This document shows, piece by piece, positions 252-60,651 of a stretch of 64,000 nt of DNA (the first letter of the stretch is position 1; each line of letters starts with the position of its first letter). The DNA lies in the NCBI RefSeq assembly GCF_006539345.1, contig NZ_BJMV01000011.1, forward strand, positions 38,594-102,593. Reading direction: 5' to 3'. The notes under the pieces are model-generated. The model saw only the letters and a program-made list of their open reading frames with translations. It had not been told where the DNA came from and searched no databases. The stretch comes from Acetobacter peroxydans. Lineage in GTDB: Bacteria; Pseudomonadota; Alphaproteobacteria; Acetobacterales; Acetobacteraceae. Made by a program: the position numbers and the translations under genes.

Positions 252-276
252 GCGTCACAACGGGATGCGCTAGACT
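252..276 (+). promoter_or_regulatory. Conserved-box promoter A (TOPRIM/helicase operon)
   Basis: GCGTCACAAC at 252-261, nine bases, then TAGACT at 271-276. This is one of eleven copies of the same arrangement in the window. The predicted transcript starts near 283 and would carry a leader of about 520 nt containing structured repeat R1 before the TOPRIM gene at 802. Confidence 0.6.
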
Positions 277-282
277 GAACAG

Positions 283-801
283 AGTGCGGGTCAGTCGGGG
301 GGTTTTTCCATGTCCGTTGCGTTGTGCGGTGTTCTTTTCGATCGATCAGCCCGTGTGTTCACCAGACGCCTTCGGCGGCCTACGGCTGGCGCGTCCCACG
401 CGCCCTCTGGTGCAGCCGATCCCTTGTGCCGGGGAGGTGGCTTTTTTGCTCAGGAGGTGAGGAGTGGGGAGGGGCGACCTTGCCTCTCGTGCGGCGTCTT
501 TTCGCCGGGATGTGTTCCGTGTCTGGGTGCGAGCGGGCGCGTTCGTGGCGTGGATGCAAGTATTGAACGGGCGTCGGTGAGCGAAAATTGCGGCGTTCTT
601 CTTTGTCATGAGTATCGGGAAATAAACGAAGCGGGAGCAGGAGATGAAGCAAATAAAAAAGACAGTAAAAAACACGCAAAAACGGCTGTTTTCCGCAGTT
701 TTTCCTTGGTGGCTCGGCCCATCCGTGCTATAAAAAAGGAAGTAAAGGCACAGTATCCAGAACGAATTCTGGGTCAAAGTCCTGTAAAGGGAGATCCCGT
801 C
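283..801 (+). other. Long structured 5' leader (contains repeat R1)
   Basis: About 520 bases without a convincing gene. One reading frame stays open upstream of 802, but its predicted protein is Cys/Arg-rich and unlike the downstream protein, so I do not extend the gene into it. It holds the R1 core at 360-412, then purine-rich and A-rich stretches near 640-690 and 730-750. The leader probably carries regulatory RNA or DNA structure. Confidence 0.5.
360..412 (+). repeat. Structured repeat core R1 (three-way-junction-like, 53 nt)
   Basis: Closing stem CACCAGA (360-366) pairs with TCTGGTG (406-412). Inside are a CGCC-TTC-GGCG hairpin and a GGCGCGT/ACGCGCC hairpin. R2 (16627-16679) and R3 (18753-18805) share almost the same sequence, with substitutions mainly in loops or joints. 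R1 precedes a TOPRIM gene, R2 a 231-aa gene and R3 a 149-aa gene. Confidence 0.65.
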
Positions 802-1767
802 ATGTATCAACGCTTTGAACTCTCCGAGCAGGATCGTCAGGCCATTGTCAACGGCGTCTCCTGCGCAACCCTGCTCGAAAACCACCATTTTCTTCTGGTG
901 GCGGAGAAGAGCACCAAACGCTGCCTCAAATACCGCAACGGCAACGAACACATCATCGTCAATCATGACGGGAAGGGCTGGTGGGATGCCCAGCGGCCGC
1001 GCGGCACGCCCGATAGCAGCGGCGATGTGTTCGCCCTGTGCCGCCGTCTCGATCCCGCCATGAAATGGCGCGAGGTCTGCACGGCACTCGGTGAACTGGT
1101 CGGTGTGGAACCCAAAGGGGCTGCCTATGTCGCGCAGAAGGTCGCGCGCACGGATGAGCGTAGCCCTGCCGAGCGCTGGGCCGCCCGCAAGTCGCTCTAC
1201 CGGGGCGGCAAGGTCTGGAGCTACCTGATCGGCGAGCGCTGCCTGCCTGAAGCCATCGTCCGTGAGGCGGCGGCCAAGGGCTGCCTGCGTGATGGGTATC
1301 ATGCCGCCTGGTTCGCCCATACGGACGCGCAGGGTGCCGTCTGCGGGGCGGAGCTGCGTGGGCCGGATACCCATATCTGCCTGGGCGGTTCAATCAAAAC
1401 CCTGTTCCGCTTCCAGCCGGGCAGTGTCCAGCCGGTGCGTCGTCTGGTGATCTGCGAGGCGGCAATCGATGCGCTGTCCTTTGCCGCCCTTGATACGGCC
1501 CGCGTGCCCGGCACTGTTTACGCCTCCACCGCCGGGGGCATGGGCCCTGAGACCATTGCCGCCATCCAGGCCCATCTCGCGGCCATGAAAGCCCTGCCTG
1601 AAGCGGTGCTGGTTGTCGCGACGGATGACGATGATGCGGGCAATGCGTTCGCCGACACGCTCTACCGTCTGGCTGATGACGCGGATGTCGCTTTCATGCG
1701 CCGCCTGCCGCCTGATCGGGCCAAAGACTTCAACCAGACGCTCAAGAACCGGGCACAGGCCGCCTGA
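802..1767 (+). CDS. DUF3991/TOPRIM-domain plasmid protein
   Basis: A 321-aa protein of the kind often found on alphaproteobacterial plasmids. The N-terminal half (to about residue 190) resembles the DUF3991 region, and the C-terminal half is a TOPRIM fold: the acidic motif VICEAAIDAL lies near residue 215 and the Asp cluster ATDDDDAG near residue 282. TOPRIM domains bind Mg2+ and act in primases, topoisomerases and nucleases; no zinc finger is obvious, so a complete DnaG-type primase is not shown. I chose ATG 802 because AAGGGAG sits 7 bases upstream. Longer starts from 310 would translate the structured leader. It heads an operon with the next two genes, so a role in copying or processing incoming plasmid DNA is plausible but inferred. 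Confidence 0.75.
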   Translation: MYQRFELSEQDRQAIVNGVSCATLLENHHFLLVAEKSTKRCLKYRNGNEHIIVNHDGKGWWDAQRPRGTPDSSGDVFALCRRLDPAMKWREVCTALGELVGVEPKGAAYVAQKVARTDERSPAERWAARKSLYRGGKVWSYLIGERCLPEAIVREAAAKGCLRDGYHAAWFAHTDAQGAVCGAELRGPDTHICLGGSIKTLFRFQPGSVQPVRRLVICEAAIDALSFAALDTARVPGTVYASTAGGMGPETIAAIQAHLAAMKALPEAVLVVATDDDDAGNAFADTLYRLADDADVAFMRRLPPDRAKDFNQTLKNRAQAA

Positions 1768-1870
1768 AATGGAATTTAATTAAACATACAGTCAATAAAG
1801 ACGTTGTATCGGCTGAGGCGCGCGGTTCTGCGTCCCTGATCCAGCGACAGAACACCAGAGAGGACAGCCC

Positions 1871-4807: not shown

Positions 4808-7800
4808 TCAATGACGGAGGCGTCGACGGATACCAGCTTCATTGTCTGCCCAGTCAGCTTGTCGCTCGTAGGTGTTCGCCATCCCCATCAACAGCGTCGA
4901 CGACACGAACGGATGGCTGAACTGGATCGCCTCGGCCCATTTTCGGTAATTATCCGCCAGTTTGCGTTCCTGACCTCCACCGTCACCACATGAGTGAATG
5001 CCGCGTGCATTGTAAAGGCCAGTGCGCGCTCCGCGCGAAATTTCCTCGGACTGCAGTTCTTCCATAACATCGCGAACAGGCTCGCACGGCCAGTTCCCGT
5101 CTGCGTCTGCAGGAGCACTTGAAAACAGCTTACCAAGGCAGTTGTCACACACCGCCAGCCGGTTCAGTTCAGCCGAGAGTCGACGCACGTCGTTTACCCA
5201 CTTTGCGAGATTCTCCTTTCTTAGCACTTCTTTTTTGTCGTGTCCCGGTATCCGCTGGATGCTTTCAAGTAGGTGATACCCACGCGTCGGCAGGTCTTTT
5301 CGTCCCTTGGGCGTGCGGAATTTCTCTGGGTCTTCCTGACCGTCGTCACGACGGTACGCCCAGACCAGTGCTTGCACATACATCTCCGGGTGCGTTTCAA
5401 CGTAACGCTCAAGGTTCGGGATCTGCCGTGTTTCGTTGCCAAAGGCGCGGGACAAGACCTCAATATACGCAAACTCCAGCCCTGCCTTTTCCTCGAGTGT
5501 AAGGTCGGCATTGCGATCCAGCAGAGAGAACGCCGTCTTGATGTCATATTCTTGCAACTGATACTCGTCCGACTTGTCGTTACGGCCCATGGCTATGCCA
5601 GAGAGCATCCGGTACAGGAGAGCCGGGCTGATCGTTTCAAGATTGACGCCCACGGCGGCAAAAGCAGCGCATGGTCTTTCTGCCTTCAGCATACGCTCAA
5701 CGGCTTCGTTGTTCTCCCCCGCAGGCTCGAGGATCCATTCCGGGTTTACGTCCTGCCAGTAGCCCTGGCGTCCGACTTCGGAAAGAGTATCGACAATTGC
5801 CCACGTTCCCGAATTGAAAGGTGAGAGCAGTAAGAGCCTGAGCATGTCGCCCTCTGATAGCAATGACCTGACTGTCGAAAAAAAGGCAGTCCGGTCTTCG
5901 ACCGTCATGGCGCGCAACGCGCCGCAAATCAGATTCTTCCTCTCGGGCGACAAACCGTTTGACCCCGGCTGGAGCGCCTCCACAATCAACTTGGTCTTCT
6001 CGTCGCCGCTGAGGACGCTGCGGATCAGATGCCACCCGATCTGACTTTGCGCCCTCCCCTGTCCGGCAAGCGCGAATATACCATGTATACCTTGCTCGGC
6101 GAAAACCTCCTTCAAGGCGGCTACACGCAGCCGTTCGACGCGCTCCTCACGCTTGTGAAAATCCAGCTCATCATCCAGCTCATCGGCAGTTTCTTCGATC
6201 CACGGCTGGCGGAAAAGCCATTCATGTTTGTTGGCAAGGTCTGTCGGCTCCATCGCTGCATAGACAGCGTTTGCCGTCTTGATCAGGGCCACGAAACTGT
6301 CATCCGTGGCTCTCCTACGGCCCCGTCGGGACAAGACGCTGGCCCGGATTTTTCCGCGCACCTTCGCAATGTCCGGATCGGATGCGCTCTCCTTCCATGT
6401 TGCAATGAGCTCCCAGACGCGCTGCTGATCCTTGTCGGCAAGGCCATGCAGCCGATTGACGAGGTCGCACAGCATATCTGTCGTATAGGTTGGGCGGGTA
6501 AGCGACATCTCGACCGTCTCATTTACGAACGCGCGAATGGGTTCCATAGACTTGAACGGCTCACCAAAACCGTAGCCGTCAGGACGCCATTTTGGCTTGT
6601 AGCTTTCATTACCTACGCTGCTGCCGCCATGGCCGAACTGTTCGACGCAAATTTCCCAACCAACCGCCGGATGTTTCTCCAATAGTAATCTCAGGGCTTT
6701 CAGGCGTTGATCGCCGTCTGCCGCAGTCTGGGGCATCCACGCTCGAAAGATTTTCTTCAGCGACGCGATTGGCTTATTATCAAGACCGTCGTTGATTTGA
6801 ACGCAGGCCAATCGGCCAAGGATCAAGACCGCGCGCGCCAATGTTGCGGGGTTCCAGGCCAACCCTTCCAGTGCCCACAGAAGCCAGACGCGGGGACTAT
6901 GGGTTCCGAACAATCCCGCCTCGATCGGCTTGAGGATCGATATCGACGCCGGTTGTTTCGTCCTCAGGTCACGCTCGAAAATCGTCAAGAACGTGCTAGG
7001 GGCAGCTTCCGCATATACGGGAAGGTCACGCTCGTTGGATTCGATCTTCCGCGTCGAAAGCGGCTCCAGTAGCTCCCTCACAAGCGTTGATGCAGCAACT
7101 TCGCAGTTGAAACCGAGGCGCGGCTTGAACAGGCGATTGCCATGAATGGCCAGCAACGCCAACGTCTCCGAAATGCCCTTGCGTAGCGCCGCCGAAAACT
7201 CTCGTTCTTTTCCGTGCGCCGCCGCTGCCCAACGCTCTTTTTCAGGTAGATCCAGCGCCGGATCGTCTTCCCCCAATACCACCTTGGCTAAGTCGAGGTA
7301 CCGCTTAAGGTCAGAGCAGGTGATCACTGTGGCGATCGCAAAGAGCGCATCGATTTTTGAAATGACCCCGCGGTAGCCTCCGATGGACCACACCGGCGAG
7401 TCATTTAGTGCTAGCAGTTCCTGAATGCGACGTTCCAATTCTTCGTAATGTACGTCCCCTGCCAGAAGGCTTAGAGCACGCTGGTCCGACTCTTTGTCGG
7501 CATTCCATGTACCGACGAGCATAAGCGGCACCAACGAAGACGCGATCTTACTGTCCGCAGCCCATGCCGGCGTTCGAACGGCTTCGACTGTGGACAACTG
7601 ACGCCGAAGAACCGTCAGCGAACGGCCGGACCTATTTCCATATTTCGTAATGTCATCTCGGTCATACCCCATTGATTCCAGCCCCACACGAAATGCCTCG
7701 TAGCCAAGCGGCTCAAGGGTGATGTGCGGTTCGGAATTCGTGGCGTTGCGCGGGTAAAGGACGATCGATCGAAGTGAACTGGAATACGGGCCTAGCTCGC

Positions 7801-8902
7801 GCTCTACGTCGCGCGAATGAATGACTGCAATGAAGTCTTTCGCCCCCTGCGCCAACGCGGGCAAAATACCGACCTGATCGAACACCAGCGCGCGATCCCG
7901 CCCCTCGGTCAGCTCGGGATCGGAGAACAACTGACTCAAGAAGGCAAGGGCTTCTTCCACGGAGTCGCCGGTGATAATCATCGGCTCCGATGCAGGTCGG
8001 GCGAGGAAGTCCTGGAATTTATCCCGCGCGATATCGATCGCTGTTTTAAACAGACTGGCATCCAGCGCAGGTTGCGTAACATTGGCCCAATCATTCCAAC
8101 ATTTGTCCAGAGAACGGACACCTTGCGATGGACACTCAGTTTCATTGGCAAACCATGCCTGACCAGCAAGCGATTGCTCCATCCATTGCTCAAGATCGCT
8201 TGCGTCGTAGGCGCGGACATCCTTCCACTGCTTTTTGGCCTTCATCTCCGCGATCCATTTCGCTTTGCCTGGCCACCTGCGGGGCGTGACGAAAACAAAC
8301 GTGACCTGATCGCGGTCGGCTTTTCGCATATAGGCCCTCACGCTCTTGGCGAAGTCGCCGTCTGCCTTGGCCTTCGGATCCTCGTTGACGCCAAACTCCC
8401 AACCTGTGGCTCCAGCTGGAATCCATGGCGTTCCACCCTTCGCTTCCGTCCAACCGTCCCATCCGGCGCGCTCCGCATCGTCGTTACCGGGGAAGTCGAC
8501 CTTTTCGAGCCCGACCCCCGTGGAATTCACCAACGTTCTCAGAAAGACCGATAGTCGTGCCCTTGCTCGAATGTTGTGATCGGCCCAATTGGCGATGTCG
8601 TTGGCCTTGAAGCCCAGGAACGGGGGCACATATGCCTTGGCACTCGTAGGCACCGACTTCGTTTTCGTCGCCTGCGCATCAAAGGCGGCCTGCATTTCTA
8701 AAAGTCTCGCGGCAGACATACCAAATGCCGTCTCGATCCGCACCGCCATATCGGGGGTAGCCGAAACCTTCCCGTTCAGGAAATTCGATACGCCAGAGCG
8801 GCTGATGCCAATCAGTTTCGCAGCGTCGGTAACGCTCATCTTCCGTGGCGTCAGATATGTCGTTCTGACATGCTGTCCGGGATGGATGGGCTCATCGGCC
8901 AT
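4808..8902 (-). CDS. HigA-type HTH fused to a very large protein, putative defence
   Basis: A 1364-aa protein. Residues 1-75 are a HigA/XRE-type helix-turn-helix (MSVTDAAKLIGISRSGVSNF). Residues about 130-260 contain GWDGWTEA, GWEFGVNEDPKAKAD, FVFVTPRRWPGKAKW and DASDLEQWME, an arrangement that resembles predicted restriction-endonuclease-like domains seen at the front of large anti-phage proteins. Near residue 310, IITGDSVEEALAFL sits where an NTPase P-loop would be, but the GKS/T residues are absent. The remaining thousand residues look helical, like repeat or STAND-type sensor regions. It is alone between two inverted MITEs, and the stop lies 1-2 bases from one MITE boundary, so the 3' end may be altered. 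Defence is inferred from domain style; there is no experimental parallel I can name. Confidence 0.6.
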   Translation of the reverse strand: MADEPIHPGQHVRTTYLTPRKMSVTDAAKLIGISRSGVSNFLNGKVSATPDMAVRIETAFGMSAARLLEMQAAFDAQATKTKSVPTSAKAYVPPFLGFKANDIANWADHNIRARARLSVFLRTLVNSTGVGLEKVDFPGNDDAERAGWDGWTEAKGGTPWIPAGATGWEFGVNEDPKAKADGDFAKSVRAYMRKADRDQVTFVFVTPRRWPGKAKWIAEMKAKKQWKDVRAYDASDLEQWMEQSLAGQAWFANETECPSQGVRSLDKCWNDWANVTQPALDASLFKTAIDIARDKFQDFLARPASEPMIITGDSVEEALAFLSQLFSDPELTEGRDRALVFDQVGILPALAQGAKDFIAVIHSRDVERELGPYSSSLRSIVLYPRNATNSEPHITLEPLGYEAFRVGLESMGYDRDDITKYGNRSGRSLTVLRRQLSTVEAVRTPAWAADSKIASSLVPLMLVGTWNADKESDQRALSLLAGDVHYEELERRIQELLALNDSPVWSIGGYRGVISKIDALFAIATVITCSDLKRYLDLAKVVLGEDDPALDLPEKERWAAAAHGKEREFSAALRKGISETLALLAIHGNRLFKPRLGFNCEVAASTLVRELLEPLSTRKIESNERDLPVYAEAAPSTFLTIFERDLRTKQPASISILKPIEAGLFGTHSPRVWLLWALEGLAWNPATLARAVLILGRLACVQINDGLDNKPIASLKKIFRAWMPQTAADGDQRLKALRLLLEKHPAVGWEICVEQFGHGGSSVGNESYKPKWRPDGYGFGEPFKSMEPIRAFVNETVEMSLTRPTYTTDMLCDLVNRLHGLADKDQQRVWELIATWKESASDPDIAKVRGKIRASVLSRRGRRRATDDSFVALIKTANAVYAAMEPTDLANKHEWLFRQPWIEETADELDDELDFHKREERVERLRVAALKEVFAEQGIHGIFALAGQGRAQSQIGWHLIRSVLSGDEKTKLIVEALQPGSNGLSPERKNLICGALRAMTVEDRTAFFSTVRSLLSEGDMLRLLLLSPFNSGTWAIVDTLSEVGRQGYWQDVNPEWILEPAGENNEAVERMLKAERPCAAFAAVGVNLETISPALLYRMLSGIAMGRNDKSDEYQLQEYDIKTAFSLLDRNADLTLEEKAGLEFAYIEVLSRAFGNETRQIPNLERYVETHPEMYVQALVWAYRRDDGQEDPEKFRTPKGRKDLPTRGYHLLESIQRIPGHDKKEVLRKENLAKWVNDVRRLSAELNRLAVCDNCLGKLFSSAPADADGNWPCEPVRDVMEELQSEEISRGARTGLYNARGIHSCGDGGGQERKLADNYRKWAEAIQFSHPFVSSTLLMGMANTYERQADWADNEAGIRRRLRH

Positions 8903-9342: not shown

Positions 9343-9367
9343 GCGTCACAACGGGTTCAGGCACACT
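9343..9367 (+). promoter_or_regulatory. Conserved-box promoter B (HD-GYP gene)
   Basis: GCGTCACAAC at 9343-9352, nine bases, then CACACT at 9362-9367. The predicted start is about 9374, one base before the ATG at 9375, so the mRNA would be essentially leaderless; no Shine-Dalgarno sequence is present. Confidence 0.55.
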
Positions 9368-9374: not shown

Positions 9375-10037
9375 ATGACACCCACACGCCCGTTCGGCAC
9401 CGCGGCAGATCTGTCGCCCGGTCCGGAACACCGCCAGCTCCGGGCACTGGCGCAACAGGCCGGTCGCGAACTCGATGGCCATGGCAACCGTGTGGCCGGC
9501 ATGGCCCAGGCGCTTGGCCATGCCCATCAGGGCCAGTCCCCTACAGCGCTGCTCGCCCTGGGCGCGCAGCTGCACGACATTGGCAAACGCCACATCCCCA
9601 TTGAGGTTCTCGACGCGCCCCGGCGGCTGACGCCTGCCGAATGGGCGGGCATGCGTCTGCACACGCTTCTGGGGCTGGATATCCTGTGTCGCGCTCTGGA
9701 CGAGGTGCCGCAGGATGTCGCGGACTGCGTGCTCCTCCATCACGAGCACTGGGACGGGTCTGGCTACCCGATCGGCCTGTCAGGTGCGTCCATTCCCCTG
9801 CTGGCCCGCCTTGTCGCCATTGCGGATTTCATCGACGCGCTGGCCTCGCCGCGCGCCTACAAATCCGCCATGCCGCCCGAGCTTGTCCGCACCCTCGTGC
9901 TCAGGGCGCGCGGGGTGAAGCTCGATCCCCTCCTGACCGATCTCGCCCTGCGGATCTGGCCGCAGCTGCTCCGCGCGCGCGCCCAGGCGGGCCTGCCGCG
10001 CGCCGTCACAACGGAACCAGCGATACTCAAACCCTGA
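9375..10037 (+). CDS. HD-GYP domain cyclic-di-GMP phosphodiesterase
   Basis: A 220-aa stand-alone HD-GYP protein. It keeps the metal ligands and signature: H36 in DGHGNRV, HD at 67-68 (QLHDIGK), H95, HH at 122-123 with H125, DGSGYP at 127-132, and D151 in IADFIDAL, with the usual R-AYK after it. These enzymes hydrolyse cyclic-di-GMP to pGpG or GMP. There is no attached receiver or sensor domain, so activity would be set by expression. The gene has its own conserved-box promoter and seems leaderless. In cellulose-producing acetic acid bacteria cyclic-di-GMP activates cellulose synthase, so this gene could alter biofilm or pellicle state of the host; that is inference. Confidence 0.88.
   Translation: MTPTRPFGTAADLSPGPEHRQLRALAQQAGRELDGHGNRVAGMAQALGHAHQGQSPTALLALGAQLHDIGKRHIPIEVLDAPRRLTPAEWAGMRLHTLLGLDILCRALDEVPQDVADCVLLHHEHWDGSGYPIGLSGASIPLLARLVAIADFIDALASPRAYKSAMPPELVRTLVLRARGVKLDPLLTDLALRIWPQLLRARAQAGLPRAVTTEPAILKP
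10003..10027 (+). promoter_or_regulatory. Conserved-box promoter C (winged-helix/DUF1173/GapR/ArdC operon)
   Basis: CCGTCACAAC at 10003-10012, nine bases, then GATACT at 10022-10027, lying inside the last codons of the HD-GYP gene. The transcript would start near 10034 and serve the AGGAGG-preceded ATG at 10059. Confidence 0.6.
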
Positions 10038-11994: not shown

Positions 11995-12456
11995 GTGCAA
12001 GCTGTGACCGGGCTGCATAAACCCGGGGAGGAGCTGGCCCGTCCTGCCGATGGCGTGCTGATTGGCACGGCCCTGGTGTGGATCGGCTGGCCGCTCCAGC
12101 AGTTGTCGCGGCGCTCGGGCTATGATCGTCACGAGATTACGCGCTGGATGCATAAAGGCGGGATGCCTGAGCCGTTCAGGCTCTGGCTCACAGCCCTTCG
12201 GGCGGTTCACGTCCGCTATCCCTCTCCCCTGGCGACAACCGTCCGGCCCGGTGGCAACCGCCCGCCTCTGGGGCGGTGGGAGGTGCTGCGGATTCAGCTG
12301 GTGATCGGTTGGTCGGAGCGCCAGCTCGCGGAGCGGCTGGGGGAGCATCGCACCGCGTTGCGGCGTCGTCTGGAGGCCGGTGAGACGCTGGACGCGCGGG
12401 AATCCCGGTGGCTGGAATTATTGGAAGACGGCCACCGGCTTAATCCACGGCCCTGA
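11995..12456 (+). CDS. Small protein with two helix-turn-helix motifs
   Basis: A 153-aa protein, probably from GTG 11995 (GTG 12004 is an alternative). It shows two HTH-like units: LQQLSRRSGYDRHEITRWMH (about 34-53) and SERQLAERLGEHRTALRRRL (about 106-125). Just upstream is TTATCCCCAGAATCTGTGGA, which contains a CCxCAGA/TCTGxGG palindrome and could be its operator or a DnaA-like site. A transcription-factor role is inferred; it is another candidate for the box regulator. Confidence 0.6.
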   Translation: MQAVTGLHKPGEELARPADGVLIGTALVWIGWPLQQLSRRSGYDRHEITRWMHKGGMPEPFRLWLTALRAVHVRYPSPLATTVRPGGNRPPLGRWEVLRIQLVIGWSERQLAERLGEHRTALRRRLEAGETLDARESRWLELLEDGHRLNPRP

Positions 12457-12485: not shown

Positions 12486-12776
12486 ATGCTGGATGGACAG
12501 TTCCACGAAGGACAGGGTGGCGACACGGACACGGATCCGGCCGTAGGCGGGATTGCGGCGGATCGGCTGCGCTCGATCATTGAGCGGGTTGAGCGGCTGG
12601 AGGAAGAGCGCAAGGCCCTGGCGGGCGACATCAAGGATATCTTCACCGAGGCAAAATCGGCCGGGTTCGATGTGAAGGTGATCCGCCAGATCATCCGGCT
12701 GCGCAAGCTTGAGCCCGCTGAGGTGGAGGAACAGGAAACCCTGCTCGATATCTATCGGCGCGCCCTGGGCATTTAG
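12486..12776 (+). CDS. GapR-like (DUF2312) nucleoid-associated protein
   Basis: A 96-aa protein whose residues 24-96 match the GapR/DUF2312 family: LRSIIERVERLEEERKALAG, DIKDIFTEAKSAGFD, IRQIIRLRKL and a final LLDIYRRALG. GapR of Caulobacter is a coiled-coil clamp that binds overtwisted, often AT-rich DNA ahead of polymerases and supports gyrase and topoisomerase IV. A plasmid copy may help with torsional stress during replication or transfer. A GGCCC-tgac-GGGCC hairpin (12448-12461) sits before the gene. It is in the same operon as DUF1173 and ArdC. Confidence 0.88.
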   Translation: MLDGQFHEGQGGDTDTDPAVGGIAADRLRSIIERVERLEEERKALAGDIKDIFTEAKSAGFDVKVIRQIIRLRKLEPAEVEEQETLLDIYRRALGI

Positions 12777-14328: not shown

Positions 14329-14353
14329 AGACTGCCAGAAAAAATTGTGACGC
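14329..14353 (-). promoter_or_regulatory. Conserved-box promoter D (membrane-protein gene)
   Basis: On the minus strand GCGTCACAAT, nine bases, then CAGTCT (14334-14329). This copy has one mismatch in the box (final T) and a weak -10, so it is the least certain of the eleven. Predicted start near 14322. Confidence 0.4.
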
Positions 14354-16457: not shown

Positions 16458-16482
16458 AGTATGACGCAACCGGTTGTGACGC
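16458..16482 (-). promoter_or_regulatory. Conserved-box promoter E (membrane/zinc-ribbon genes)
   Basis: Minus strand: GCGTCACAAC, nine bases, then CATACT (16463-16458). Predicted start near 16451, 40 bases before the ATG at 16411. Confidence 0.6.
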
Positions 16483-21672: not shown

Positions 21673-21697
21673 ATTGTCGCTCATTCCGTTGTGACGC
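21673..21697 (-). promoter_or_regulatory. Conserved-box promoter F (ParA-like operon)
   Basis: Minus strand: GCGTCACAAC, nine bases, then GACAAT (21678-21673). It lies just after the stop of the coiled-coil gene 21716-22573. Confidence 0.6.
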
Positions 21698-23700: not shown

Positions 23701-23725
23701 GCGTCACAACCATTTGTGTCAGGCT
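23701..23725 (+). promoter_or_regulatory. Conserved-box promoter G (relaxase operon)
   Basis: GCGTCACAAC (23701-23710), nine bases, then CAGGCT (23720-23725). Directly after it lies an imperfect hairpin CTCCA-t-GCAC-attcc-GTGC-TGGAG (23726-23749) that would form the 5' end of the mRNA, similar to the palindrome at promoter F. Confidence 0.55.
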
Positions 23726-23756: not shown

Positions 23757-24038
23757 ATGTCTACCACTCAGGCGACGACAGATAACAGAGATCTTTTCCG
23801 AGCATTGGCTCAGCTTATGGCCGGGCAGGCGCAGGGCCACGAAATGCTCGGGGTCATCATCAAACTGCTGACGCCCGACGAGAAGGGCGACAACCGGGTG
23901 GCGGTGCTGCTGCAAGAGCTGGTTGATCTGGTTGCTGCCCAGACCGAGGCTATTCAAGCCAACACTGAACAAAGCCGTGCGACACAGGCTGCTGTCGAGG
24001 CCCTGACGCGGGGCGCGACAGCACGGGTCGCGCCATGA
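23757..24038 (+). CDS. Small helical protein preceding the relaxase
   Basis: A 93-aa protein, MSTTQATTDNRDLFRALAQL followed by MAGQAQGHEMLGVIIKLLTP. It is helical, with a Gln/Thr/Glu-rich C-terminal coiled coil (AAQTEAIQANTEQSRATQAA). The start at 23757 (GAGAGAGAG upstream) is preferred over upstream starts because those lie above promoter G. Its ATGA overlap with the relaxase suggests a relaxosome accessory role like TrwA or TraY, though no RHH fold is evident. Confidence 0.6.
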   Translation: MSTTQATTDNRDLFRALAQLMAGQAQGHEMLGVIIKLLTPDEKGDNRVAVLLQELVDLVAAQTEAIQANTEQSRATQAAVEALTRGATARVAP

Positions 24039-27000
24039 TCACCTATCGCAAACTATCGGCCGATGGCGCTGGCAAGCTGATTGTCGCCTATCTGCGTGAG
24101 CATCAACTGGCCCCTGAAACCGACGTCCGCACGGAGCCTGATGCAACGCGTGATGTCGAGACGGGGGGCAGGCTGAACAGTTACTACACGGGTAAGGACG
24201 GCAGAGGGGCATGGGGGCCGAATATTCCCGCGCGGATTGCGGCGGCATTGGGGATTGATGCGGCACGTCCTCCCACGGATGAGGAACTGGCCAGACTGTT
24301 CGAGTGTCGCCGGGCGTCTGATGGCGAAGAATGGGACGGCAAGCACGCTAACCGTACGATTTCGGCCATCGACTTCACGGCCTCCCCCGACAAGTCGGTG
24401 ACACTCGCCGCCGAGTTCGCGGCGACAAAGGCCGAGCAGGCGTTGATCTGGCATATCATCCAGCGCGCCAATGATCAGGCGATGCGCTTCATCGCCGATG
24501 AAATCGGGCAGGCCCGCCGGGGAAAGGGCGGGCTGGGTGAGCTGCAGAAAGGCGAGGTGGCCTGGGTGTCGTTCCGGCACTATACGGCGCGTCCGGCCAT
24601 GCACATTCAGGATGGGGCCGGTGGGGCAACAGCCTCGGTCGAAATACCGGTGCCCGGTGATCCGCAGGCACATATCCATAATCCTGTGTTCAATGCCGTC
24701 GCGACGGAAGACGGTCATCTGGGATCACTGGATTCAGCCCGGATCACGCGGGTGACGTCCCACCTGTTCGGGGCCTATTTTCAGGCGGTGCTGGCGGAGC
24801 TGCTGCGTGAGAGCGGGATCAGGGTGCGCCCAGACGAGCGTGGGAAAGCGATTGTCATTGAGGCCATTCCCCGATCGGTCTGTGAGGCATTTTCCAAACG
24901 CAGCAAACAGGCTGAAAAACAGGCGAAGGCGTTTGTCGCGCGACAGGGGGGTAACTGGAACACCATGTCGGCCGACCAGAAGTTCAAGGTTCTCCATCAG
25001 GCCAACCTTGCGTATCGCTCGAAGAAGTATAACGGCACCAATGATCGCGAGATCTGGCGCGAAGAGGCTGAGGCGCTGGGCTGGCGTCATGAGACGGTGC
25101 TGACGGATGAGCCTTCGCACGCACTGGACGACGCGGAGCGCTACGAACGGGCCTACCAGATTGCAGCCCAGCTGCTTGAAGAGGAGTTTCGTACGGCTGC
25201 CGTTCTCGATCGCGATGTTTTTCGGCTGCATGCTGCCCATGGTCTGATTGAGACGGGGATTAAAAGCGTCGATGACGTACGGATTGTCGCGGAGATGATT
25301 GCCGAACGGGGCATTACGGTGGATGGCACGCCAACCATGTTCATCGAACAGGTCCGTGACGGGCGGATGCGGGTTGCTACACAGGCCCAGCTGGCCGTCG
25401 AAAAGGAAATGGGCGAACTGGCGGGTTTTGCAGCCCGTAATCCCGAGGGGGCGCTCAGTGCGGAGGCCATTGCCAAAGCGGTTCGTGAGTCCGGTCTGGA
25501 CTTTACCCGTGACGCGGATCACGGTCGCACACAGCTTGCCGCCATTTATGCGCTGGGGCAGGCGGGTGGCCTCGGGTTCCTGGTGGGTGTCGCCGGGGCT
25601 GGGAAGACAGCGGCGCTGTCGCCTCTGGTGACAGCCTGGAAGGAAGATGGCCGTCAGGTGGTTGGAACGGCTCTGGCGTGGCGACAGGCGGACGCCCTCA
25701 AAGATGCCGGCGCTGACAGAACGGTCGCACTGTCTCCGCTTCTGCGTGAGATGGAGGCGGGACGGCTAACTCTGGCGCGCGGGTCTATTCTGGTCGTGGA
25801 TGAAGTCAGCCAGATCGCGCCGGGGCAGCTTCTGCGCCTTTTGCGTTTCCAGAAGGAGATGGGGTTTTCGATGCGGCTGCTGGGAGACCGGGAACAGGCG
25901 CAGGCGATTGAGGCGGGCGACAGCGTGGAAATCCTGCTGCGGGTTTTGCCGCGTGAGGCCCGGCCTAAGATTCTCACGACAATCCGGCAGAAGACTGAAA
26001 GGGCCCGGCGGATTGCGGGGTTGTTTCGGAGCAACGGTCGGGATTTGACGTTGAATGAACAGGAGCAGCGCGACAAGGATACGGCCCGGGTCCGTCAGGC
26101 GATTGACATGAAACGTGCGGACGGGACGTTTGCTGTGATTGGCGGGGATCATGCGCAGGTCGTTGCGGATACTGCCGACTTCTATCTACGACGACGCGAC
26201 ATGTTGGCGGCGTCAGGCAGTAAGCGCGGGATCACGATGTCGGCCCCTACCAATGACGACGTCATGGCGTTGAGCGTTGCTGTGCGTGAGCGACTGCGGG
26301 CCAGAGGTGAAATCGGCACGGAAGAGATCGTGCGGGCCGGGATTGATCAGCGCGGGGAGGTCTATGATCTGCCGCTTTCCGTGGGGGATAGGGTACGTCT
26401 TTTCTCGCAGACGCGTTGTCGGATCGGGGCCGGCCGACAGACACGCTGGCGCGAACTGGGATCGAACGGTGATTTTGTGGATGTGCGCGGCTGGAATGAT
26501 CAGGGCGTGTTTCTGCGTAACCTGAAGGGCCGTGAGGGGTTCGTGCCCTGGGCCAGTCTGGCGGACCCCGATACCGGACGCACGAAGCTGGGTTTTGGGC
26601 ATGCGATGACGATTGATGCCGCGCAGGGCATTACCTCGGACGAACATATCAACGCGATGCCGCGCGGCACGATGGCCGTCAGCGGGTTTACGACTTACGT
26701 GGCGGAGAGCCGTCACGCGCATATCGCCTGGACACGGGTTGCAGAAGCGCCGGTGCGTGAGGCGATTACGTTTGCCCGACCGCTGGGGGATAAGACGCCT
26801 GTGACCTATGAGGACATCCTCAACCGGATCGCCGCCAACATGGGCAAGCACGACTACAAGGATCTTGCCATTGATCTTGCCGGGGCGACGCTCAGGCACG
26901 AGCAGGATACGACACGCTGGATCCGGCAGAACCATGAGATCGAAGCGGCCCAACGCGATGGCCGCGCGCCGGGTGCGGCAGCGCGCAGCCATGTTGCGAC

Positions 27001-27205
27001 ACGAGGGTTGCGCGAGGTTGCCCCTGCGCAATGGGATGACATCAGCCGCACGCTGCGCCGGAGTGCCTATGCGCTGCAGAATCAGGCCGAGGCGGCCGTG
27101 CGGCTTGAGCGCGATCTCCCCTCTCAGCCTGCGCTCGATATTGGCAAATCACGGGGGCCTGCTCGCGCACCACGGGTGCAGCAGGACAATGATCTGGGGC
27201 TTTAA
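24035..27205 (+). CDS. MobF-family relaxase-helicase (TraA/TrwC-type)
   Basis: A 1056-aa protein. The N-terminal relaxase domain (to about 300) has a Tyr pair at 50-51 (NSYYTGKDG), candidate nucleophiles, and the HUH metal motif in DPQAHIHNPVFN near 209-220. The C-terminal half is an SF1 helicase: Walker A GVAGAGKT near 518-525, DEVSQIAP near 589, GDREQAQAI and a final TIDAAQGITSDEHI motif. It would nick oriT, stay attached to the 5' end and unwind the plasmid for transfer through the Dot/Icm channel. The nucleophile pair lies further from the N-terminus than in TrwC because of an insertion. Pairing MobF with a type IVB channel is uncommon. Confidence 0.92.
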   Translation: MITYRKLSADGAGKLIVAYLREHQLAPETDVRTEPDATRDVETGGRLNSYYTGKDGRGAWGPNIPARIAAALGIDAARPPTDEELARLFECRRASDGEEWDGKHANRTISAIDFTASPDKSVTLAAEFAATKAEQALIWHIIQRANDQAMRFIADEIGQARRGKGGLGELQKGEVAWVSFRHYTARPAMHIQDGAGGATASVEIPVPGDPQAHIHNPVFNAVATEDGHLGSLDSARITRVTSHLFGAYFQAVLAELLRESGIRVRPDERGKAIVIEAIPRSVCEAFSKRSKQAEKQAKAFVARQGGNWNTMSADQKFKVLHQANLAYRSKKYNGTNDREIWREEAEALGWRHETVLTDEPSHALDDAERYERAYQIAAQLLEEEFRTAAVLDRDVFRLHAAHGLIETGIKSVDDVRIVAEMIAERGITVDGTPTMFIEQVRDGRMRVATQAQLAVEKEMGELAGFAARNPEGALSAEAIAKAVRESGLDFTRDADHGRTQLAAIYALGQAGGLGFLVGVAGAGKTAALSPLVTAWKEDGRQVVGTALAWRQADALKDAGADRTVALSPLLREMEAGRLTLARGSILVVDEVSQIAPGQLLRLLRFQKEMGFSMRLLGDREQAQAIEAGDSVEILLRVLPREARPKILTTIRQKTERARRIAGLFRSNGRDLTLNEQEQRDKDTARVRQAIDMKRADGTFAVIGGDHAQVVADTADFYLRRRDMLAASGSKRGITMSAPTNDDVMALSVAVRERLRARGEIGTEEIVRAGIDQRGEVYDLPLSVGDRVRLFSQTRCRIGAGRQTRWRELGSNGDFVDVRGWNDQGVFLRNLKGREGFVPWASLADPDTGRTKLGFGHAMTIDAAQGITSDEHINAMPRGTMAVSGFTTYVAESRHAHIAWTRVAEAPVREAITFARPLGDKTPVTYEDILNRIAANMGKHDYKDLAIDLAGATLRHEQDTTRWIRQNHEIEAAQRDGRAPGAAARSHVATRGLREVAPAQWDDISRTLRRSAYALQNQAEAAVRLERDLPSQPALDIGKSRGPARAPRVQQDNDLGL

Positions 27206-28271: not shown

Positions 28272-29150
28272 TCAGCATGATGACTGCGCCGCAATATCCA
28301 TCAAAGCAGAGACAGCCGGATTGGCTGAGGTAATCGGAGCGCAGAGCACCACATCCAGCGTCGGGGCGGTCCTTAAAGGTTTGGAGACAAGGCTCTCATC
28401 AAGCATACTGCACAGGGATTCCGGAATAAGTGCGACCCCCAGTCCCTCGGCGACAAGTTTTATGATCGTATGTTGCAGCCTGGGTTCCAGGACAAAATTG
28501 GGGGAAATCCCACCAGCCGCAAAATAACTGGCAATCGCTGACCGAAGGGTCGGGGCGACAGACGTGGGTGTCGCAATAAGCCTCTCATGACAGAGATCGT
28601 CCGGCCCAATCATTCTTTTATTGGCGCACGCATGATCTGCTCTCATGATCATTCGTAATTTTTCTTTTGCCAGATGGATTGTCCGTAAATGCGGAGAATA
28701 GCCGGGGGCGAACGTCACTGCGGCATCCAGTTTTCCTACCATCAGCATGTCATCAATTTCCGTGGGTGTCCGCTCTTCCAGAACAAGCCTCACGTCAGGT
28801 CTGATCTCCGAATAGCGCTGCACAAGTCGCGGTACGACGCTATGGGCCGCGTGCATCATAAATCCAAACCGCAACTCGCCCTTCATGCCGCTCGCCACCA
28901 GCCTGACATCCCGACAGGCGGCATCAAACTGTGCAATGACAGTGCGACAATCGTCCAGAAAGTGTTTTCCGGCTGGCGTGAGCGTGACGTGTCGCGAATT
29001 TCTTTCAAACAGCTTAACACCCAGTTTCTGTTCGATCAGGGCGATCTGACGACTGAACGGCGGCTGGGTCATATGCAACAATTTAGCCGCCCGACCAAAA
29101 TGGAGCGTTTCCGCGAGCGCCATGAAATAATGCATATGCCGCGTGTCCAT
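28272..29150 (-). CDS. LysR-family transcriptional regulator
   Basis: A 292-aa LTTR. The HTH occupies about 1-60 (YFMALAETLHFGRAAKLLHM, TQPPFSRQIALIEQ), followed by the periplasmic-binding-protein-like effector domain. It is divergent from the AEC transporter with a 100-base gap, so it very likely controls that gene in response to the transported acid. Confidence 0.9.
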   Translation of the reverse strand: MDTRHMHYFMALAETLHFGRAAKLLHMTQPPFSRQIALIEQKLGVKLFERNSRHVTLTPAGKHFLDDCRTVIAQFDAACRDVRLVASGMKGELRFGFMMHAAHSVVPRLVQRYSEIRPDVRLVLEERTPTEIDDMLMVGKLDAAVTFAPGYSPHLRTIHLAKEKLRMIMRADHACANKRMIGPDDLCHERLIATPTSVAPTLRSAIASYFAAGGISPNFVLEPRLQHTIIKLVAEGLGVALIPESLCSMLDESLVSKPLRTAPTLDVVLCAPITSANPAVSALMDIAAQSSC

Positions 29151-29188
29151 CTGATACCTTCAGAGTATTGGTTAAGCCAGAACTGCGC

Positions 29189-29204
29189 ATTGGATTATAT
29201 CAAT
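29189..29204. promoter_or_regulatory. LysR-type binding site
   Basis: ATTG-gattatat-CAAT, an inverted repeat of the T-N11-A class, in the divergent gap between the LysR gene and the transporter. Confidence 0.5.
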
Positions 29205-29250
29205 AAGGTCGCATAGTGTCACACGCTCTTAAGACCTTCCGAGCCTCCTG

Positions 29251-30553: not shown

Positions 30554-30617
30554 GTGACGTGCCCCCCGGAAATGTAACCATTTAAAAGTAGAGTCCGATC
30601 GAGAAGGATACGGACGA

Positions 30618-30884
30618 ATGAAACGCAGTCGCTTTACGGAAGAGCAGATCATAGGGATCCTGAAGGAACAGGAAGCCGGGCTGAAGGTCTCTGACCTTTG
30701 CCGTAAACACGGGATCAGTGACGCGACCTTCTACAAATGGAAGACCCGTTATGGTGGCCTTGAGGTCTCCGAGGCCAAACGGCTGAAGGCGCTGGAAGAT
30801 GAAAACAGCCGCCTGAAACGTCTTCTGGCGGATGCCATGTTGGATAATGCGGCACTGAAGGAAATTGTTGGAAAAAAGTGGTAA
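30618..30884 (+). CDS. IS3-family transposase OrfA
   Basis: An 88-aa protein with the N-terminal HTH ([35 protein letters not shown]) and a leucine-zipper region ([20 protein letters not shown]), as in IS407-group OrfA. An AAAAAAG slippery sequence at 30872-30878 near the end would allow -1 frameshifting into OrfB to make the full transposase. Confidence 0.92.
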
Positions 30885-38522: not shown

Positions 38523-38547
38523 ATCATACGGGCGTGGGTTGTGACGC
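38523..38547 (-). promoter_or_regulatory. Conserved-box promoter H (dotL unit)
   Basis: Minus strand: GCGTCACAAC, nine bases, then TATGAT (38528-38523), the best match to a standard -10 among the set. It sits inside the last codons of the IcmS-like gene; the transcript would start near 38516 with AGGAG before ATG 38498. Confidence 0.65.
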
Positions 38548-43134: not shown

Positions 43135-43845
43135 TCATTGTGCGCTCATCCGTTGTGACGCCGAGCTGGCCACCAGATGGTGCCAGACTTTCGCCTGATA
43201 GGTGACGTTGGGCACCGGATTTACCGAGTTGTAATTACCCACGCGACGCCAGAACTCGCCGGGGTTGGACGGGCTCTGCCCATCGAGCGCACGGGCGAGG
43301 ATCCATGCGCCGATCTGCAGGTTCAGACAGCCATCATTGATGACCTGCTCGCGGGTGATCCCCAGTCTGGCCAGCTCGGGCAGATGGATGGAATTGATCT
43401 GGGCTACCCCCATGTCGTAGCTGCCGTTGGTGTTGCGGACGATCTGACCGACATGTCCGCCTTCTGTCGCCAGCACGGCGAGGAAGAGGCCTTCATGGAC
43501 ATGGTAACGCCGGGCGGCGGCCAGCGCGCAGGTTTTCAGGTCGGCCGGCAATGGGCTGGATGGTGTGGGTAACGGCGCTTTGCGCGAGGGCGGTGGCTCG
43601 CGGTGCGCTGTTGCGCCTGCGCCGCTCCAGGCGAGGATCCACGCGCCAGCCGCGATGTTGATGCAGGCGTCGGTTTTCACCTTTTCAGGGTCAAAACCGG
43701 CGCGGGTGAGGATCGGGAGCCATTCGGGCTGGATGCCCATCGGGCCGATACCGCTGGCCGCATGGTCGCGCACCTGTTCCAGATGGGCGATGGGAACGTG
43801 ATAATACTGTGCGGCAGTCAGTCCGCAGTCCGGGAGGGCGCTCAT
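43135..43845 (-). CDS. Lytic transglycosylase with internal duplication (PilT/VirB1-like)
   Basis: A 236-aa protein made of two related halves. The C-terminal half (about 100-215) is a full SLT domain: LAVLATEGGHVGQIVRNTNG with catalytic-type Glu, then SYDMGVAQINSIHLPELARL, CLNLQIGAWILARALDG and NYNSVNPVPNVTYQAKVW. The N-terminal half (about 7-75) repeats the scaffold (AAQYYHVPIAHLEQV, IGPMGIQPEWLP, ACINIAAGAWILAW) without the Glu. It would open peptidoglycan for the channel or pilus. No signal peptide is obvious. Confidence 0.85.
   Translation of the reverse strand: MSALPDCGLTAAQYYHVPIAHLEQVRDHAASGIGPMGIQPEWLPILTRAGFDPEKVKTDACINIAAGAWILAWSGAGATAHREPPPSRKAPLPTPSSPLPADLKTCALAAARRYHVHEGLFLAVLATEGGHVGQIVRNTNGSYDMGVAQINSIHLPELARLGITREQVINDGCLNLQIGAWILARALDGQSPSNPGEFWRRVGNYNSVNPVPNVTYQAKVWHHLVASSASQRMSAQ
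43137..43161 (-). promoter_or_regulatory. Conserved-box promoter I (dotD-icmS operon)
   Basis: Minus strand: GCGTCACAAC, nine bases, then CACAAT (43142-43137), then six bases to ATG 43130. The box lies within the last codons of the transglycosylase gene. A leaderless transcript is predicted. Confidence 0.6.
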
Positions 43846-54238: not shown

Positions 54239-54263
54239 AGTATCGCGCAACCCGTTGTGACGC
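54239..54263 (-). promoter_or_regulatory. Conserved-box promoter J (VirB9-like/pil operon)
   Basis: Minus strand: GCGTCACAAC, nine bases (GGGTTGCGC), GATACT (54244-54239), six bases, ATG 54232. A leaderless mRNA is predicted for an operon running to pilV and the transglycosylase. Confidence 0.65.
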
Positions 54264-58318: not shown

Positions 58319-58340
58319 GACGTTTGTGTCCTTGATGAAA

Positions 58341-58901: not shown

Positions 58902-58913
58902 GGTGTCTGCGCC

Positions 58914-60020
58914 TTAACGGATGGTGCCGTGTTCGGTGTGGACAACCCAGCTGCTGCCGGACTGTGTGATCGCGGTGACAGCGCCCCATCCGTCCAGCAT
59001 CGATCCGGGCTGCACGCGCACGGGCTGGCCCTGCGGGCTTTCCAGAATGGCGATGTCGGGTGCGCCCGCCTGAACGGTGTAGTGCGGGCGGGCAACGGGC
59101 CGTTCCGCCGGGGCGGTTTCAGCGTGGGGATGCCTGGGCGTTTCTGTCGCCTTGTGGGGGCCGCTCGGGGTCTGCATCGCTGCCGCGGGTGCCACGGCCG
59201 GAGCGGCGGGCGCGGGCGCTGCGTGGGAGACCTGACTGGCTTCGAGCGTGTCCTCACGGTGGCGCAGTTCATCAAGGCGGCCGCCGACTGTGCCCAGTCC
59301 GGAGACGATCTGGTCGTGCAGCGCATGCTGGCTGGCGTCGAGCTTCTGTTCGAGCGCGTCGATCCGGTTTGTCATTTCGGTGAGCTGGCGGCTCATTTCC
59401 ATGAAAAGCTGATCTTCGCCTGAGGTGGAAGAGCGTGTGGCTGGCTGGTCCGTCCGGGTGTCGGGGGCCGTCTCTTCGCGCGTCGTCTGGGTCGAGGGTG
59501 CTTCCACGGGTTGTGTGGTGGGCGCTGATGGCGTCGTGACAGGAGCTGTCGTGGCGGATGTCGCGCCAGTATTGGCAGGTGTCACCCTGGCGGCACTCGC
59601 CGCCGGTGCTGTCGCCTGTTTTGCGGCGGCAGGAGGCGCACCCAGATCAGGCGGAGTAATTCCCGAACTGTTCGCATCCGCACCGCTCACAACCGCTGTC
59701 TGCACGGCTGGCGCTGCGTGCGTTACTGGCTTTGGGGATGAGGCGACATGCACAGCTGTCGCGCCGACGCCCAGCAGGGCGACAGCCGCGACCCCGCCCC
59801 ACAGGGCCTTTGATCTGGCGACCCTCTGGAGGAGTCCCGGTGACGGGATGCTGGCCGACATCGCCTGTGGCGCAACGGCCGGACCTGTTGCGGCAGGCGG
59901 TTCAGCAGGCTCTGGTGTCGCGGTCCGGGGCGCTTCGCCCCCTGCGGGAGGCGTTGCGGGCTTGCGTAGCATCGTGACAGACCCGTTTTGGGGTTCAGTC
60001 GTCATGGCGAGGGCTCCCAT
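58914..60020 (-). CDS. DotF/IcmG/TraP-like bitopic protein
   Basis: A 368-aa protein: Pro/Ala-rich cytoplasmic N-terminus, one membrane helix (about 70-92), a long Ala/Thr/Pro linker, a coiled coil (LFMEMSRQLTEMTNRIDALE and following) and a C-terminal beta domain ending WVVHTEHGTIR. This layout is that of DotF/IcmG, which gathers substrates and surrounds the DotG channel. AAGGAG precedes ATG 60020. Family call is by layout and order rather than strong motifs. Confidence 0.62.
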   Translation of the reverse strand: MGALAMTTEPQNGSVTMLRKPATPPAGGEAPRTATPEPAEPPAATGPAVAPQAMSASIPSPGLLQRVARSKALWGGVAAVALLGVGATAVHVASSPKPVTHAAPAVQTAVVSGADANSSGITPPDLGAPPAAAKQATAPAASAARVTPANTGATSATTAPVTTPSAPTTQPVEAPSTQTTREETAPDTRTDQPATRSSTSGEDQLFMEMSRQLTEMTNRIDALEQKLDASQHALHDQIVSGLGTVGGRLDELRHREDTLEASQVSHAAPAPAAPAVAPAAAMQTPSGPHKATETPRHPHAETAPAERPVARPHYTVQAGAPDIAILESPQGQPVRVQPGSMLDGWGAVTAITQSGSSWVVHTEHGTIR

Positions 60021-60037
60021 GGTGGCTCCTTGAGGGG

Positions 60038-60598
60038 TCAGTTAGGCGTCGGCGTGGTGAGGGCTGATGGCATGGTGTTCCATGTCAGCGTGCCGAGCGG
60101 TTTGCCGCTTGTGGACGCGAAGAGCGGAACGGTTTCACCATCGGCAATGGAGAGGGTGCCCTTGAAGGACTCATGGACCTCGTCGGGGAGATCGATTGTC
60201 GCGTCGCTACCGGGAACGCGGGCGTGTTTCATGCTCCGAAGCGTGAGCGTGCTGATGGAGACGTCCAGAGTCACCACGCCCTGATGTTCTGCGCGTGCCC
60301 TGAAGAGCGTATCCGTTCCCGTTTCGATAACCCCTTCGTGGACAATGGGAGGTTTACCGGGGCGTAGCGTCACGGAATCCGTGTAGGGCACCACCATGCG
60401 CCGTTGTGCCGGGAACCCGGCGGTATCTCCAACCGTGACGGCGGTCATTCTACTGCTGCCGTCGAGGCCACTGAACGTGACATAGCCGGATTTCGGAGTG
60501 GCATTCTCAGCGCTTGTGGACGACGGCGCCGTTTCTATGGCCAGCGCCGGTGTCGCAAGCGTGAGAGAGGTTGCAAGCAATGCAAGAAGCGGTCGCAT
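60038..60598 (-). CDS. Unknown exported protein in the dot operon
   Basis: A 186-aa protein with signal peptide (1-20, ending TPALA) and a beta-rich mature part (SGYVTFSGLDGSSRMTAVTV, RMVVPYTDSVTLRPG). First gene of the operon under promoter K, just after dotG. It might be a periplasmic scaffold specific to this branch of type IVB systems; no family recognised. Confidence 0.6.
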   Translation of the reverse strand: MRPLLALLATSLTLATPALAIETAPSSTSAENATPKSGYVTFSGLDGSSRMTAVTVGDTAGFPAQRRMVVPYTDSVTLRPGKPPIVHEGVIETGTDTLFRARAEHQGVVTLDVSISTLTLRSMKHARVPGSDATIDLPDEVHESFKGTLSIADGETVPLFASTSGKPLGTLTWNTMPSALTTPTPN

Positions 60599-60626
60599 AA
60601 CTGTCCTTTCGTGACTGTCTTTTCTC

Positions 60627-60651
60627 AGTATCGCCCATTTGGTTGTGACGG
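60627..60651 (-). promoter_or_regulatory. Conserved-box promoter K (dotF-dotO operon)
   Basis: Minus strand: CCGTCACAAC, nine bases, then GATACT (60632-60627). Predicted start near 60620, with AAAGGAC before ATG 60598. Confidence 0.65.

Follow-up and report, generated by a model that had tools for sequence, protein, structure and literature searches.

A putative promoter class with one fixed spacing on plasmid-like contigs of Acetobacter peroxydans and a candidate helix-turn-helix regulator

In this study, we asked what starts transcription of the operons spread over a 64,000-nucleotide stretch of Acetobacter peroxydans DNA (the window; positions 38594–102593 of the 102.6 kb contig NZ_BJMV01000011.1, here C11, in a host assembly of 2.70 Mb and 29 contigs), and which factor reads the sequence at their heads. 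An earlier note on this window had described eleven sites at which an 8-mer box, GTCACAAC, precedes a −10-like hexamer by nine bases. These operon-start sequences appear to form a promoter class, and we consider it probable that a plasmid-encoded helix-turn-helix (HTH) protein of XRE-like type binds the box and recruits or positions host RNA polymerase. The evidence in hand is the box, its fixed gap to the hexamer, the missing −35 element, start codons at the expected site and conservation before orthologous genes. The letters of the box change by plasmid lineage, and the class co-occurs with one domain of the HTH protein, HTH2.

Box, gap and hexamer in the window

All eleven box sites were found (Table 1), with a gap of nine in 11 of 11 and a hexamer of the form NANNNT at every one. 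As described before, the 8-mer is exact at ten sites, the exception being the minus-strand site ending at 14353, which reads GTCACAAT; the 10-mer GCGTCACAAC is exact at eight window sites and starts with CCG at two (10003 and 60651). The claimed rarity was also borne out, as the window holds ten copies of GTCACAAC where 1.57 are expected and none of 100 shuffles reaches ten. All ten are themselves promoter-like sites; copies inside genes or against gene direction, which would have counted against a promoter class, did not appear, no exact GTCACAAC in the window lying outside the box-gap-hexamer architecture.

Each window site is followed, at most 140 nt on, by the start of an open reading frame (ORF) of at least 60 codons that runs in the direction of the site. 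The view that the sites point into operons therefore holds for direction at 11 of 11, but the 14353 (−) site does not lie ahead of ardC, which is on the plus strand; judged from the sequence, it heads a small membrane-protein-like ORF that is conserved in A. orientalis. At sites 23701 and 54263 the true starts likely fall inside the longest ORFs, at about 23757 and 54232. The genes behind the window sites include DUF3991/TOPRIM, HD-domain, winged-helix, MobF relaxase, coupling-protein, DotD and CagX/TrbG genes, and several others have no Pfam match.

Across the whole host assembly, GCGTCACAAC-N10-ANNNT gave 14 matches, confined to C11 and two further contigs, C18 and C19, while the reversed control pattern gave none. 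GTCACAA[CT] occurs 18 times on these three contigs, with the nine-base gap at every copy. Because relatives of both C11 and C18 sit on plasmid pAOF1 of A. orientalis, these two contigs look plasmid-borne; a plasmid origin of C19 is less certain. With a slightly stricter pattern, four of 150 genomes of the family were matched, the window's own with ten matches and three others with one each.

To place the hexamer, we used 36 boxes picked without regard to it. A is found at −11 in 35 of 36, T at −7 in 35 and G at −6 in 29, so the −10 signature of the housekeeping sigma (A−11, T−7) is present, with T at −12 in only 9 of 36. The earlier note had placed the box where no standard −35 lies, and the counts show no conserved T/T/G at −36 to −34 (T at −36 in 1 of 36, T at −35 in 2, G at −34 in 6). 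Neither a −35 element of the G. oxydans type (consensus ttGnnn; PMC5756330, in part), 16–23 nt upstream, nor an extended −10 (TGn; T−15 in 4 of 36) was found in these boxes. An independent ruler is provided by start codons: the ATG of an ORF of at least 60 codons lies 6 nt past the hexamer at 24 of 181 box sites, against 0.93 expected from 135,167 other hexamers, and 7 nt past it at 7 of 181 (1.27 expected), with none at offsets 9–11. This excess at 6 nt identifies the hexamer as a −10 and places the start site. With T at −7, an offset of 6 sets the A of the ATG at +1, and such messages are therefore predicted to be leaderless, a kind of mRNA known in G. oxydans (PMC5756330, in part). Taken together, the nine-base gap in about eight box types, the A−11/T−7 signature, the missing −35 and the start codons at +1 strongly support a promoter class with a replaced −35, as the earlier note had suggested; that its regulator activates and does not repress is what we infer below.

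Box types on related plasmids and a blind scan

When related acetic acid bacterial plasmids were searched, the same architecture was found with other box letters before orthologous genes, and the nine-base gap, whose variation would have spoken against the class, was constant across the related plasmids examined. The closest case is pAOF1, about 84% identical over roughly half of the queried stretches, which holds 18 copies of GTCACAA[CT], 17 of them with NANNNT at the same gap (16 by a stricter hexamer) and many before orthologous genes. This box marks no orthologous-gene promoter in the scanned stretches of pGOX1 (G. oxydans) and A. vaccinii CP043507; instead, a different box stands nine bases before the hexamer at many of the genes, GCACTCACA[A/T]N in pGOX1 and GC[A/G]C[C/T]CACAAC in CP043507, and some have no box. 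Further boxes are CCCACAA[A/C] in K. saccharivorans (six directed sites, one in doubtful context), GTCGCAT[G/C] in Kozakia and GTCGCAGA in G. albidus, together with AGTCACAAA, CTCTCA and TTCGCA in the HTH2-bearing replicons G300, G376 (our handles, as are the other G numbers below) and Roseomonas mucosa CP025192, respectively. Counting as kin C11 with pAOF1, the two A. vaccinii plasmids, pGOX1 with G339, and the two Kozakia plasmids (apparently one strain), we estimate about eight independent box types.

The gap profile over 18 sequences has 200 hexamers at nine bases versus 29–49 at each of 17 other gaps, for boxes picked with the data already in view; a blind scan is for this reason the stronger test. 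In it, all 6-mers were combined with gaps of 2–35, near-identical contexts were removed, and hexamers needed an ATG-started ORF 5–8 or 15–55 nt downstream. The best word fell in the nine-base register in 13 of 14 HTH2-bearing replicons, and the leading words of all 13 have CNCA in common, at −27 to −24. CNCA is also present in all 95 sites of one set, but those sites were selected by box patterns, which partly builds the count in, and it is the blind-scan words that give fair support. Two MPF_I plasmids without an HTH2 domain, A. pasteurianus pAPA01-020 and K. medellinensis pGXY010, served as controls, and their best words lay at unrelated gaps (d=24, score 4.7; d=4, score 6.5). A degenerate box likewise gave no clear excess at nine bases on them, with 76 hits versus a mean of 75.5 at other gaps on one, and 93 versus a mean of 75.4 and a maximum of 99 on the second. 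No register word was among the matches listed in the first scan for five HTH2 contigs of 5.6–14.7 kb (G228, G337, G180, G242 and G387), which were left out of later scans, and the scan gave no word for C18.

The candidate regulator and its alternatives

Three factors encoded in the window had been put forward as readers of the box, and of these only the double-HTH protein (11995–12456) survives. Neither Pfam nor NCBIfam has a model that matches the 63515 protein, which leaves its label "GcrA-like" unsupported. The plasmid winged-helix protein has no match in G. albidus, Roseomonas CP147884 or Roseomonas CP025192, and its family is only weakly matched (E 0.003–0.006) in Lichenicola and Kozakia. 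Two other plasmid proteins were rejected as regulators by the same kind of profile: the MucR gene is missing from pAOF1 and Kozakia, and the GapR gene from Roseomonas CP025192, all of which have the promoter class. This profile concerns the plasmid copies of GapR and MucR, chromosomal copies being outside its reach. Reading frames common to all five relatives compared, one of them represented by 100 of 102.6 kb, include those for the winged helix, double HTH, GapR, HD domain, relaxase and helicase.

The HTH2 domain is found in 10 of 10 genomes or records compared, including Lichenicola and Roseomonas CP147884, which have HTH2 relatives and were left out of the promoter-class scan. Its family occurs in at least 32 of 397 Acetobacteraceae genomes and 13 of 102 genera (E ≤ 1e-6); class-wide, at E ≤ 1e-8 and among the matches listed, it was seen in the window's own genome only, of 385. 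Double-HTH proteins match one profile twice, and HTH1 and HTH2 are accordingly likely a duplication. The recognition helix of HTH2 (HRTALRR and variants) is conserved, while that of HTH1 differs from one box type to another, being identical between C11 and pAOF1 and nearly so between the two A. vaccinii plasmids and within the Gluconobacter set. On the window protein, PF01381 (XRE/lambda-repressor-like HTH) scores 20.6 bits versus a cut-off of 23, and precomputed data give it in 3 of 7 homologues; the AlphaFold model contains two HTH bundles. No FlhC/FlhD-like match was found in Pfam, NCBIfam or PDB sequence searches, and the Pfam results of the candidate proteins hold no DUF2285 or DUF6499 domain. 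Since its HTH2 tracks the promoter class, we regard the double-HTH protein as the best candidate, on comparative grounds, for a master regulator that reads the box.

We propose that this protein would bind at −31 to −22 and replace −35 recognition through contact with RNA polymerase, the 8-mer (−29 to −22) taking over the role of the −35 contact made by sigma region 4. The conserved CNCA half of the box (−27 to −24) would be read by HTH2, and the variable upstream half by HTH1 where a plasmid encodes a double-HTH protein. Activation is favoured over repression because the gap is invariant with different boxes and the core promoter is weak. The protein would also control its own gene, and the circuit would therefore be a plasmid-wide switch for transfer and maintenance functions. 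Among the 30 loci taken from the family survey, CNCA-N12-A-N3-T with an ATG exactly 6 nt later heads the HTH gene itself at 11 of 19 single-HTH loci; all six single-HTH replicons in the start-codon count, namely the two Kozakia plasmids, G. albidus, G242, G387 and Roseomonas CP025192, have this arrangement. The window's double-HTH gene lies downstream of the 10003 site and is not directly headed by such a promoter. As to specificity, we compared the residue before the conserved His of HTH2 with the base at −26. Glu is paired with A−26 (C11, pAOF1, pGOX1, G339, Avac1/2, K. saccharivorans and G060), Ile with T−26 (G376), and both Val or Leu (the two Kozakia plasmids) and Arg (Roseomonas) with G−26. 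Met is paired with two bases, G−26 (G. albidus, G242 and G387) and A−26 (G300), and we claim no clean residue code for HTH2.

Several observations weigh against our proposal. The pairing of Met with different bases in G. albidus and G300 means that helix and box do not correspond cleanly; the self-heading arrangement is lacking at 8 of 19 single-HTH and 11 of 11 double-HTH loci; and the AlphaFold model is modest (pLDDT 66), its PDB matches being mostly XRE-type and weak (E ≥ 0.2). In the blind scan, K. saccharivorans was the single miss among the 14 HTH2-bearing replicons, and with near-identical contexts kept the result falls to 10 of 14, the box being outranked also in Avac2, Kozakia and G. 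albidus. The score of the K. medellinensis control (6.5, as −log10) equals those of the weakest positives (6.2–6.9), and positives and controls are therefore told apart by register and not by score alone. The start-codon offsets were fixed after the ORF starts at the window sites had been examined, the replicons are related, so that 14 are not 14 independent cases, and the HTH2-less plasmids tested number two.

The strongest rival accepts the same protein and reverses its sign, taking it as a plasmid-wide autorepressor with the box as an operator at a fixed site over weak promoters. KorA and ArdK are plasmid-wide autorepressors of this sort, and XRE-fold proteins are often repressors. The box before the HTH gene itself at 11 of 19 single-HTH loci is what negative autoregulation would give, and a PHROG with weak similarity carries the name "repressor". 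However, neither a −35 nor an extended −10 is left to drive basal transcription, T at −12 is as rare as given above, and one strict gap across about eight box types suggests a stereospecific contact with RNA polymerase; we therefore judge autorepression unlikely. Somewhat further from the evidence, the box might be read by another factor altogether, either a chromosomal regulator (chromosomal GapR or MucR included) or an alternative sigma recognising box and −10 together. Co-occurrence on plasmids is compatible with a chromosomal factor, host contig C2 also encodes GapR and MucR, and G. oxydans has four annotated alternative sigmas (PMC5756330, in part). Against this, the pattern is confined to C11, C18 and C19 in the host assembly, the −10 retains the housekeeping A−11/T−7 signature, and within one genus (A. 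orientalis and A. vaccinii) the plasmids differ in box letters, a difference that a chromosomal factor common to them leaves unaccounted for; we see little room for such a factor.

The plasmid GapR or winged-helix protein, each encoded beside the double-HTH gene and conserved in close relatives, is a most improbable regulator: GapR is absent from the class-bearing Roseomonas plasmid, and in class-bearing plasmids of Kozakia, G. albidus and Roseomonas the winged helix has no match or a weak one. That the element is an RNA or DNA structure (a pause, attenuator or antitermination site) and not a promoter is the least credible option of all: inverted repeats do run from the end of the hexamer in a subset, but start codons 6–7 nt past the hexamer leave no room for a leader of that kind, and A−11/T−7 is near-invariant. 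FseA/DUF2285 was rejected as activator, its site being an inverted repeat beside a −35, which is missing here, and a T7-like polymerase initiating right after the hexamer, an idea that arose from inverted repeats beginning there, was set aside given ATGs at exactly 6–7 nt, no search having been aimed at such a polymerase.

Activation by the double-HTH protein would resemble known systems in how it works. Like AcaCD of the enterobacterial IncA/C plasmids, which is experimentally proven, it would be a plasmid-encoded master activator with one motif before many transfer operons and a class 2 profile, which for AcaCD is relative to mapped starts; AcaCD is FlhDC-like, whereas our candidate is XRE-like and predicted from sequence (PMC4207636, in part). 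T4 middle promoters, where MotA and AsiA appropriate sigma, likewise keep the −10 and replace the −35 by a box, a functional likeness without a claim of membership; the MotA box is centred near −30 and our 8-mer at −25.5, and MotA has a double-wing DNA-binding domain and requires AsiA as co-factor (PMC6755090, in part). Streptomyces SARPs such as AfsR share a fixed short distance to the −10 (the 3′ repeat is 8 bp away), a site overlapping the spacer and a poor −35, but they have an OmpR-type fold and direct repeats 11 or 22 bp apart, in contrast to one asymmetric box of 8–11 bp with a 9-bp gap (PMC10936776, in part). No such direct repeats were found, the information profile of the 36 boxes being one block from −31 to −22. 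FseA, also an HTH-like activator from a mobile element in alphaproteobacteria, binds an inverted repeat beside an existing −35, and the present box is asymmetric and without one (PMC10359603, in part). The class would thus work like promoters with an activator-replaced −35 (T4 MotA, SARPs) and like plasmid master activators (AcaCD), and in the parts of these papers compared, none of the three matches it in protein family or geometry.

A narrow-term search of the open-licence literature found no description of this promoter class. If our proposal is true, these plasmids have a single master switch for transfer, with a promoter geometry unlike that of MotA, SARP or AcaCD, and their diverged box–regulator pairs, about eight in number and all at one fixed spacing, form a natural series in which to study the takeover of −35 recognition by an HTH protein and the evolution of its specificity. 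The proposal predicts start sites on pGOX1, the plasmid of a strain with a published start-site map (G. oxydans 621H; Kranz et al. 2018), so existing public data can confirm or reject it. In the coordinates of NC_006672.1 (another record of pGOX1 is 1 base longer), 13 box sites give predicted starts at 101393, 113325, 119266, 127506, 131402, 136024 and 160363 on the plus strand and at 142224, 109380, 101298, 25383, 6380 and 5981 on the minus strand.

Leaders, hairpins and neighbouring genes

In a subset of sites with longer leaders, an inverted repeat starts within the final two bases of the hexamer and is closed no later than the start codon. Fold z-scores average −1.13 at 79 box sites, 35% of them below −1.5, versus −0.26 and 14% at 250 control hexamers (Mann–Whitney p = 1.7e-4). 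At 21697 (−) a perfect inverted repeat directly follows the hexamer, with a compensatory stem change in pAOF1. Because the 5′ arm begins upstream of +1, the full stem would form only in read-through RNA. Hairpins and leaderless starts could in this way lock translation to the promoter, a secondary idea for which a gain in ribosome-binding-site accessibility (0.081 versus 0.044 in shuffles, p = 0.013) is weak support. Read-through transcripts would then be left untranslated, and only transcripts initiated at sites of the activator itself would yield the products of plasmid genes. The most far-reaching version, which we offer tentatively and hold to be doubtful as a whole, is an Acetobacteraceae plasmid clade with an evolvable promoter code, in which an HTH activator takes the −35 role, boxes and helices co-vary, the 9-bp gap is frozen and translation is promoter-locked. 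In G. albidus CP014690, a terminator-like hairpin overlaps the promoter at 230394 (−): its perfect stem opens with the −10 hexamer and has TTTTTT behind it, and the hairpin is complete in read-through RNA only.

Table 1. Predicted promoters with a nine-base gap, and genes discussed as regulators, in the window
Feature	Position	Strand	Hexamer	Remarks
Predicted promoter	252..276	+	TAGACT (271-276)	Box 252-261; predicted start ~283; before DUF3991/TOPRIM gene 310-1767; conserved in pAOF1
Predicted promoter	9343..9367	+	CACACT	HD-domain gene ATG at 9375, 7 nt past hexamer (near-leaderless)
Predicted promoter	10003..10027	+	GATACT	Before winged-helix gene 10059; upstream of double-HTH and GapR genes
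Predicted promoter	14329..14353	−	CAGTCT	Box GTCACAAT; before small membrane-protein-like ORF ~14300-13905
Predicted promoter	16458..16482	−	CATACT	Before ORF 16408-15998 (no Pfam match)
Predicted promoter	21673..21697	−	GACAAT	Before ORF 21624-20839 (ParA-like by eye; no Pfam match)
Predicted promoter	23701..23725	+	CAGGCT	Before small ORF (start ~23757) and TrwC/MobF relaxase gene 24035-27205
Predicted promoter	38523..38547	−	TATGAT	Before ORF ~38498-38076 and coupling-protein (TrwB/DotL-like) gene 38074-35825
Predicted promoter	43137..43161	−	CACAAT	DotD/TraH lipoprotein ATG at 43130, 6 nt past hexamer
Predicted promoter	54239..54263	−	GATACT	CagX/TrbG-like gene ATG at 54232, 6 nt past hexamer
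Predicted promoter	60627..60651	−	GATACT	Before ORF 60598-60038; N-terminus signal-peptide-like (by eye)
Winged-helix-like protein, 176 aa	10059..10589	+		Earlier candidate, now disfavoured
Double-HTH protein, 153 aa	11995..12456	+		HTH1 ~residues 29-78, HTH2 ~102-153; best regulator candidate
GapR-family protein (PF10073)	12486..12776	+		Downstream of double-HTH gene, same direction

Elsewhere in the assembly, C18 carries at 6640-6690 two back-to-back divergent promoters of the class, with 31 bp between the GTCACAAC starts, facing genes annotated in relatives as SH3/transglycosylase and DsbC-like; pAOF1 has kept the pair, as have pGOX1, A. vaccinii and K. saccharivorans with boxes of other letters. 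On C19, an ORF at about 8767-7943 (−) is headed by such a promoter and encodes about 274 aa from the ATG after it, with repeated Myb/SANT-like units by eye. Within the window, the annotation of relatives identifies 35825-63511 (−) as a Dot/Icm-like (MPF_I) transfer system that includes genes for a type IV pilus and a PilV-like adhesin. A LysR regulator/AEC-type transporter pair followed by IS3-type transposase-like ORFs (by eye) at 28272-31768 forms an inserted cassette without a nine-base site. A 1364-aa ORF at 4808-8902 (−), with an N-terminal HTH-like segment by eye, also has no such site upstream; an A. vaccinii plasmid encodes an annotated 1345-aa helix-turn-helix regulator, to which it may or may not be related.

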